DNA from: Akkermansia muciniphila
GTDB taxonomy: Bacteria > Verrucomicrobiota > Verrucomicrobiia > Verrucomicrobiales > Akkermansiaceae
NCBI GenBank assembly: GCA_945901795.1
Contig: CAMDLP010000024.1
Span: 1-43,129, forward strand
Reading direction: 5' to 3'
DNA: 43,129 bases
Positions 38,625 to 40,520 of this stretch are shown here, in pieces (positions within the stretch are counted from its first letter, which is position 1; each line of letters opens with the position of its first letter). The notes under the pieces were generated by a model. That model ran no database searches. It was not told where the DNA came from and saw nothing but the letters and a program-made list of their open reading frames with translations. The position numbers were made by a program, and so were the translations under genes.

Positions 38625-39212
38625 ATGAGAATCATCGCCGGAAAAGCCGGGCGCATCGCCATCAAAGTCCCCTCCGCCGTCGCCCGGCCCACCACCGACT
38701 TCGTCCGCCAGGCGCTGTTCTCCATCCTCGGCGAGCGGGTGGAAAACGCCCGCGTGCTCGACCTCTTCGCCGGCTCCGGCGCGCTCGGACTCGAAGCCCT
38801 CAGCCGCGGTGCCACCGCCTGCACCTTCGTCGATGAACACCGCCAAGCCGTGAACGTCATCCAGGAAAATCTAGCAAAAGCCCGCCTCGATGGCGGCCAC
38901 GCCGTAAAATCCGAGGTCGCCGCCTTCCTCAAGCGCGACGCCGCCACCTACGATCTCATCTTCGCCGATCCACCGTATTGGAAATACCACGGCGACAAGG
39001 ACCACGTCACCGACCTCCTCAAAAGCCGCCTGCTCACGCCCCGCCTCGCCCCCGGCGGCTGGCTGATCGCAGAAATTTCCTCCAACCAGAAATCGCCGGA
39101 AGCGGATGATTTCACCCTCGTCGAACGCCGCGAATACGGCAGTAGCGCGATCCTTCTCTATCAAAGTAGTCCAGGACTTCAGTCCGATCTTCAATCCGGA
39201 AGAACAGACTGA
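38625..39212 (+). CDS. rsmD: 16S rRNA (guanine(966)-N(2))-methyltransferase RsmD
   Basis: RsmD methylates G966 of 16S rRNA with SAM. The 195-aa protein has MRIIAGKAGR at the start, RPTTDFVRQALFSILG, motif I VLDLFAGSGALGLEALSRGA and the catalytic motif IV as DPPYW (D/N-P-P-Y). The family usually ends shortly after the strand seen here as AILLYQ. The last fifteen residues (SSPGLQSDLQSGRTD) are encoded by a long inverted repeat at 39166-39225 and the stop lies in its right arm, so the tail is a REP-derived extension. waaA begins 33 bases downstream. Confidence 0.88.
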   Translation: MRIIAGKAGRIAIKVPSAVARPTTDFVRQALFSILGERVENARVLDLFAGSGALGLEALSRGATACTFVDEHRQAVNVIQENLAKARLDGGHAVKSEVAAFLKRDAATYDLIFADPPYWKYHGDKDHVTDLLKSRLLTPRLAPGGWLIAEISSNQKSPEADDFTLVERREYGSSAILLYQSSPGLQSDLQSGRTD

Positions 39213-39225
39213 AGTCCTAGACTAC
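39166..39225. repeat. REP-like inverted repeat (hairpin) over the rsmD 3' end
   Basis: The arms GTAGTCCAGGACTTCAGTC (39166-39184) and GACTGAAGTCCTAGACTAC (39207-39225) are inverted repeats matching at 18 of 19 positions. The 22-base loop contains a further TCTTC/GAAGA pair (39188-39192 and 39200-39204), so a long hairpin can form. The form resembles REP elements moved by RAYT transposases. It overlaps rsmD and contains its stop codon (39210-39212). It could also serve as a terminator or mRNA-protecting structure, but there is no T-run after it. Confidence 0.75.
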
Positions 39226-39245
39226 GCTCTCAAAGCCACACCGCG

Positions 39246-40520
39246 ATGCGATTCCTAACCGCCCTCACCCTCTACCGGCTGCTCCTGCCGCTGCTCTTCA
39301 TCGCGGCGTTTCCCGGCTGGCTGGTGAAAATGCTGCGGCGCGGCGGCTTCGGCACCCGGCTTGGCGAACGCGCGGCGATTTACTCCACGCCGCTGGAACA
39401 CGAGCCCTGCGGCGCGGTCCACTTCCATGCCGTCAGTGTCGGCGAGTCGATGCTCGCGCTCAAGCTCATCCGCGAGTGGCTCCTCCGCGAACCTAGCCGC
39501 CGCTTCGTACTCGCCACCGGCACCGCCACCGGTCACGCGGTCGCCACCGCCGCTAACATTCCCGGCCTGCGCGTCACCTATTCGCCGCTGGATTTCCCAT
39601 CGATGGTCCGCCGCTATCTGAATCGCTTCGAGCCCTCCCAGATCGTCCTGATCGAAGCCGAGATCTGGCCACACCTGTTGCTAACATGCAAACGCCGGAA
39701 CATCCCCGTCCGCCTCGTCAACGCCCGCATGTCGCCGCGCTCGGCACGCCGCGTCCAGCGCTTCGCCGCCTGGCTGGGACCGCCCTATCAAATGCTCGAC
39801 ACCGTCGCCATCCAGGAAGCCGAGGACGCCGCGATCTGGGAAGCGCTCGGCGTCGCCCGGGAGAAAATCCACCACACCGGCAGTCTTAAATTCGACCCCG
39901 CCAGCGGCGCGCGTCCGAAGCGGCGCACGGAATTCCAGGCGATGCTCGATGCCTTCGGGAAAGGCCGTCCCGTCGTGCTGGCGGCCAGCACGCATGCCGG
40001 TGAGGACGCGTTCATCGCCGCCGCCATCCGTGAGGCGAATCCGGAGGCACTCGCCGTGATCGTCCCCCGCCATGCCGAGCGGAGATCTGAGGTGACGGCG
40101 GATTTGGAGAGGGCGGGATTCCTGGTGAAACTCAGATCTTCAGAACTCACGGCGACCGGTGATCGCCGCCACGTTTTCGTCATCGACTCCACCGGCGAGC
40201 TCGGCGACTGGACCGCGCATGCCGACGTGGTCATCATCGGAAAAAGTTTTCTGTCCACCGGCGGACAGAATCCCTGCGAGGCCATCCTCGCGGAAAAACC
40301 GGTCATCTTCGGGCCGCACATGGAAAACTTCCAACCGCTCGCCCGCCGCCTCATCGCCAGCGACGGCTGCATTTCCGCCAGTGATCCGGACGAACTCGCA
40401 CGCGCCATCGCCGCCGCGCTCGATCCGCAAAAAGCACGCGTGATGACGCACAACGCGTCCGCCTTGCTAGCCCCTCACGAGGGTGCCACGCAGCGGATTC
40501 TGGCGCTTTTGATTACCTGA
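39246..40520 (+). CDS. waaA: 3-deoxy-D-manno-octulosonic acid (Kdo) transferase
   Basis: WaaA adds Kdo to lipid IVA in lipid A/LPS synthesis at the inner face of the cytoplasmic membrane, so the organism is probably an LPS-bearing diderm. The 424-aa GT-B enzyme has an N-terminal membrane anchor (ALTLYRLLLPLLFIAAFPGW), the family patterns AVHFHAVSVGESMLALKLI and FEPSQIVLIEAEIWPHLLL, then TGSLKFDPASG and, near the C-terminus, KSFLSTGGQNPCEAILAEKP. Length and start ATG 39246 are normal. The start is 33 bases after the rsmD stop and within 21 bases of the REP-like hairpin. Confidence 0.94.
   Translation: MRFLTALTLYRLLLPLLFIAAFPGWLVKMLRRGGFGTRLGERAAIYSTPLEHEPCGAVHFHAVSVGESMLALKLIREWLLREPSRRFVLATGTATGHAVATAANIPGLRVTYSPLDFPSMVRRYLNRFEPSQIVLIEAEIWPHLLLTCKRRNIPVRLVNARMSPRSARRVQRFAAWLGPPYQMLDTVAIQEAEDAAIWEALGVAREKIHHTGSLKFDPASGARPKRRTEFQAMLDAFGKGRPVVLAASTHAGEDAFIAAAIREANPEALAVIVPRHAERRSEVTADLERAGFLVKLRSSELTATGDRRHVFVIDSTGELGDWTAHADVVIIGKSFLSTGGQNPCEAILAEKPVIFGPHMENFQPLARRLIASDGCISASDPDELARAIAAALDPQKARVMTHNASALLAPHEGATQRILALLIT

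Follow-up and report, generated by a model that had tools for sequence, protein, structure and literature searches.

The 3′ end of rsmD in an Akkermansia muciniphila genome, stop codon included, is supplied by a mirrored pair of repetitive extragenic palindromic units (REPs). This pair, a REPIN, lies in the window, which is the whole 43,129-nt stretch of DNA analysed (contig C24 of its source genome G000, a 3.28-Mb draft). The whole explanation we favour, with a probability of about 0.9, is that a GTAG-type REPIN was inserted at the end of rsmD by a REP-associated tyrosine transposase (RAYT), and that the resulting protein tail is tolerated.

By this course, the RAYT would have placed the element at the extreme 3′ end of rsmD. 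The event most likely dates to an ancestor shared by G000 and two relatives, G012 and G010, and the element would have displaced an older stop. The rsmD frame passes the first REP unclosed, reads SSPGLQS..., and closes at the TGA of the second REP. Because the enzyme domain would already have been complete before the insertion, the insert would be tolerated, drifting with little visible constraint.

The mirrored REP pair at the end of rsmD

The features concerned are as follows.

38625–39212, + strand: rsmD, 195 aa, with the family domain at residues 1–180 (open reading frame (ORF) list and Pfam)
39165–39209, + strand: REP-coded RsmD tail, residues 181–195, SSPGLQSDLQSGRTD (comparison of rsmD ends)
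39166–39225, no strand: mirrored REP pair (REPIN), 60 bp (inverted repeat and family pattern)
39166–39185, + strand: first REP unit, GTAGTCCAGGACTTCAGTCC, with its GTAG foot on the outer side (pattern match)
39206–39225, − strand: second REP unit, GTAGTCTAGGACTTCAGTCT (pattern match, one mismatch)
39210–39212, + strand: rsmD stop codon TGA, within the second REP and the 3′ arm of the inverted repeat

The arms of the inverted repeat (39166–39192 and 39199–39225) are 27 nt each and 89% complementary with a gap of 6 nt, and over the outer 19 nt all positions but one match (18 of 19). The element covers the final 15 rsmD codons plus the stop. A previous sequence-only reading of the window had described this repeat over the last codons and the stop, and the observation is confirmed. 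RNA folding of 39160–39232 gives −36.7 kcal/mol (z = −8.45, none of 200 shuffles being as good), and DNA folding of the hairpin stretch gives z = −6.92. The Pfam match to Cons_hypoth95, which we take to be the RsmD family, is confined to residues 1–180 of the 195-aa product.

The short palindromic unit, GTAGTCNNGGACTTCAGTCC, carries the GTAG foot of GTAG REPs. A phage collection gave no match for 39150–39240 (E up to 0.01). As for known structured RNAs, the only Rfam matches were four to microRNA families on the minus strand, far below gathering scores, and were taken as hairpin noise.

Copies and spread of the repeat

The 19-nt arm pattern has 25 copies in G000 at up to three mismatches, against 2 for a reversed control, and BLAST of the repeat gives 24 matches. 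The repeat is thus dispersed, as expected of the REP-like element that had been proposed, and a Y1 transposase accompanies it in relatives (below). The copy number is low for a REP family. The unit has the form GTAGTC-NN-GGACTTCAGTCC, usually preceded by A residues. Elements were tallied in six of the 13 REP-bearing genomes (G000, G010, G012, G077, G041 and G083, the last two partially). An A occupies position −3 in 99 of the 102 distinct unit rows from six genomes, and the 71 tallied elements comprise 28 doublets and 43 single units. The 18 elements of G000 are 11 single units and 7 mirrored pairs of 57–65 nt.

With one mismatch allowed, 13 of 73 same-genus genomes, counting G000 itself, contain the unit, and none of the 73 contains the reversed control. 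Among 288 genomes drawn from the order, the unit matches 18, five being same-genus; the 13 outside the genus have 1–5 matches each, one of them exact (G194), and the control matches three of the 288. Exact matches to GTAGTCCAGGACTTCAGTCC in named species genomes amount to 26 stretches in five assemblies, a count from which our own genome was possibly left out; by depositor titles, four of these assemblies are Akkermansiaceae or Akkermansia and one is Prosthecobacter. The family is concentrated in this genus, and copies outside are sparse or doubtful.

When the 18 elements of G000 were compared with loci of G010 and G012, 12 shared one or both flanks with such a locus, 8 of them both, and 6 matched none of the loci compared. 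Therefore, a good part of the element set is inherited.

A subtype with an extension like AATGCCTTTAAGGATTC accounts for 5 of the 102 unit rows (L282 on G083 C62, L201 at G012 C6:30581, L035 at G000 C84:10322, L217 in G041 and L216 in G077). At the G012 locus, it occupies the place of a mirrored pair in G000 and G010, and the downstream DNA is unmatched. Elements of this family look as if they mark rearrangement breakpoints. Separately, two contig ends of G005 (L107, C423:31–185, and L108, C24:7–116) carry head-to-tail REP units with a period of 45 nt.

rsmD ends in relatives and origin of the insert

We read 37 rsmD ends, namely 30 of the 36 rsmD-length matches plus 7 further genomes, including all 13 REP-bearing same-genus genomes; six rsmD-length matches from other families and a short G023 fragment were left unread. 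The tail is present in four (G000, G012, G010 and G083), all among the 13. The other 33 end without it at 182–206 aa, and the 27 element-free same-genus relatives have RsmD of 182–193 aa, compared with 195 aa here. The tail is lineage-specific; no identical tail appeared in distant RsmD proteins, and its description as foreign to the family holds, given these 33 ends.

RsmD of G012 and G010 is 96% and 92% identical, respectively, with the same element, site and stop. The more distant G083, assigned by genome search to the genus of the window, carries a related REP (YQSGQGLQSNAFKDSE) at the identical rsmD nucleotide, codon and frame, of another subtype and with different downstream DNA. G041 (89% identical) has no element in rsmD. 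On a tree of 20 of the 37 RsmD proteins (residues 1–180), the tail needs three changes, of which at least two are forced by well-supported branches.

Separate insertions in two lineages at the same A-rich rsmD site are favoured, without certainty. A single insertion older than the G083 split and lost several times is the less likely history, though it deserves to be weighed. It would account for the REP of G083 beginning at the same codon and frame, and the differing downstream DNA allows a rearrangement to have replaced the right half of an old pair, which is possible. It is opposed by the changes forced on the tree, by the element-free rsmD of G041, and by the subtype of the G083 copy, whose AATGCCTTTAAGG-like extension recurs at four other loci.

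The transposase

RAYTs were sought with the PF01797 profile and by reading of loci. A Y1 protein of 211–237 aa lies between REP pairs in G077, G010, G005 and G019, the last three being 63–68% identical to the G077 query, and all four have the N-H-x-H (HUH) and Y-I-A-x-N-P (Y) motifs. This RAYT family would have moved the rsmD element. The G005 protein has its own REP-coded tail, EWSSGLQSDLGEERTD, and that of G019 ends in NVVTDFSP. The expectation that a RAYT gene accompanies the repeat was thus borne out in these four relatives and not in G000 itself. There, the best match to the RAYT query is 38% identical and lies within carB.

All 11 Y1_Tnp matches of G000 were read as candidates for the cognate enzyme; none of their loci, read to about 1.5 kb per side or, for some, to a contig end, has this REP with up to four substitutions allowed. 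The RAYT query likewise gave only in-frame inserts and weak matches. The REP copies in G000 are probably immobile now, because no such RAYT gene was found in G000 or G012.

At the position corresponding to the G010 RAYT, G000 (L231, C11:26911–27626) has a different sequence, 716 nt long, that includes genes for a Phd/YefM antitoxin and a PIN-like protein, the latter below the Pfam cut-off (20.4 versus 23.6 bits). In G012, the same place is a short stretch in which GTAGTCC is joined to TGGACTAC; these joined REP ends look like a collapsed element.

Other gene ends carrying the element

Among the 71 elements, 41 contain an ORF 3′ end or lie within 20 nt of one, and 8 are so placed relative to a 5′ end. 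Random spots in the same loci have a 3′ end in 5.4% of 1420 cases, a loose control because such spots fall mostly inside genes. The 42 contacts between an element and an ORF 3′ end comprise 28 within 0–20 nt, 9 in which the frame stops at the GTAG foot and 5 in which it reads deeper, so that the stop lies inside the element in 14 of 42. Such elements had been said to sit usually between genes. Although that is correct, there is nothing exceptional about a REP at a gene end, in view of these 14 contacts and of what the accessible text of PMC3733652 describes.

Of the five deep contacts, three are accounted for by rsmD, one in each of three species, and the other two by riboflavin synthase. Riboflavin synthase ends in SSPGLHSVLQSPAD in G000 and in SSLGLQSVLHSPAD in G010, the REP being read in the same frame as in rsmD; the G012 protein, 92% identical, stops at RGLA. 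Since riboflavin synthase also ends in a REP, rsmD is not unique.

A tolerated tail or a regulatory one

In the three species sharing the element, 7 sites vary in the 45-nt tail (4 non-synonymous, 3 synonymous) and 50 in the 540-nt RsmD body (16 non-synonymous, 34 synonymous). Variable-site density is 0.156 in the tail versus 0.093 in the body, and the two do not differ significantly in kind of change by a small test (Fisher p = 0.23). No base pair of the hairpin is altered on both sides, i.e. there is no compensated change, and 3 of the 24 pairs have each been broken in a single species, leaving 95.8% of paired cells kept. These tail data fit tolerance without proving it, and the tail would then have no function. 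The sequence-only reading, partly supported overall, had called the element domesticated; the site counts and the lack of compensatory pairing do not support this, and the rsmD REP looks tolerated rather than put to use.

That reading had also suggested control of read-through to the next gene.

39246–40520, + strand: waaA (Kdo transferase), beginning 20 nt past the element (Pfam Glycos_transf_N match of the product)

The gap between rsmD and waaA is 33 nt, its first 13 nt being the hairpin end. In several same-genus relatives, rsmD stands beside a waaA-like frame, the two overlapping by up to 4 nt or standing up to 63 nt apart. A terminator scan found no terminator-like site at the hairpin, and control of waaA is thus speculation. 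An intrinsic terminator or attenuator overlapping the gene end by chance would explain the strong RNA hairpin, but there is no T run on the + strand after it, and the element has a GTAG foot and belongs to a dispersed repeat; this explanation was rejected as very improbable indeed.

Co-option, in which the tail or hairpin would be kept for tuning how rsmD and waaA are translated or how stable their mRNA is, is improbable to a lesser degree. Stop and frame are kept in all three species, as are most paired cells, and hairpin stability is alike (−35.3 to −36.6 kcal/mol). An effect of the element on translation here is possible, because REPs lying no more than 15 nt from a stop codon are reported, in the accessible part of PMC12306157, to stall ribosomes in E. 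coli. Against co-option stand the broken and uncompensated pairs, the higher density of variable sites in the tail, the absence of a terminator-like site, and the occurrence of the same element type at ends of unrelated genes.

Several points weigh against the reading of a transposed and tolerated REPIN. The comparison of tail and body covers only seven tail sites, and weak selection on the tail is possible; the retained hairpin energy could hint at a kept structure. Neither G000 nor G012 yielded a RAYT of this type, a gap that in G000 may be a miss because the genome is 95.39% complete. On the RsmD tree, 10 of 17 inner branches are open, and the element-free G041 stands beside G010 with weak support (82/76), so a single ancestral origin in the three carriers holds only if G041 lost the element or the tree is in error. 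Near relatives yielded no exact empty rsmD site. In addition to the loose random-spot control, ORF calls were crude, based on codon bias only (score cut-off 0.12 in the element survey and 0.15 in the gene-end tally), and some rows are contradictory: a spanning 477-aa frame on the − strand at G000 C23:41314, spanning 471-aa frames on the + strand at the rsmD elements of both G010 and G012, and, not counted as a tail, a 230-aa frame that ends within the element on G010 C16.

In-frame Y1 domains in housekeeping genes

G000 has stop-free, in-frame Y1 transposase domains inside carB, alaS, metH and ispG (loci L014 at C2:94846, L015 at C73:5061, L016 at C3:60407 and L018 at C73:180). They are flanked by inverted repeats of 33–56 nt, 78–97% matching and 537–651 nt apart, the insert edges being approximate. 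In relatives, where 9 of 15 long frames were scanned, this arrangement recurs as Y1 domains with metH, carB, ispG, leuS or an Eco57I-type methylase (L157, L160, L166, L171, L172, L173, L175, L177 and L178). The Y1 part of L178 (ispG) was matched by the RAYT query search and not by Pfam. The metH insert is present in four genomes, at another site in G077, and the ispG insert in two; this recurrence of host genes suggests inheritance. A literature search on in-frame Y1 inserts in such genes found no paper.

We tentatively raise the rather unlikely idea that the REP/RAYT systems of this clade have become adapted to coding sequence, the repeat being shaped to yield a short harmless peptide and a stop. 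It would draw on REPs at the same rsmD nucleotide in two lineages, on one common tail frame in rsmD, riboflavin synthase and one RAYT itself, and on whole RAYT-like elements read through in the four G000 genes.

Comparison with known systems

With element-free relatives, three carriers and a second gene available for comparison, rsmD illustrates clearly how a mobile hairpin rewrites the end of a protein, and it helps account for C-terminal tails that are lineage-specific but would be annotated as conserved. The rsmD case alone confirms prior knowledge; in-frame RAYT-like elements in housekeeping genes may matter more. The kind is already known, and the rsmD REP is a new instance as far as found, the literature not having been searched for rsmD by name.

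REPINs were defined in 2011 in Pseudomonas fluorescens (PMC3116915). As far as the accessible text of that paper goes, they share with the element here two inverted REPs, one hairpin and a link to a RAYT. Unlike there, 43 of the 71 elements here are single units and no RAYT of the type was found in G000; P. fluorescens SBW25 has 1,053 REPs, compared with the 25 arms here. Mobilisation by a RAYT through single-stranded DNA would be a trait of this GTAG REP/REPIN class.

Rickettsia palindromic elements, as summarised in the available part of PMC3733652, are likewise palindromic repeats read in frame in protein genes. They have a CGTC end, whereas the element here has GTAG feet and sits at a gene end.

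Also close in kind are the GTAG REPs of Di Nocera, De Gregorio and Rocco 2013 (PMC3733652), whose accessible text describes REPs that supply gene ends and stops, and according to which protein-end tails coded by repeats may leave function unaffected. The host differs, and our element is set beside their 24 GTAG families by description only; the genome they name as richest in intragenic GTAG repeats, that of O. terrae, also belongs to the Verrucomicrobia.
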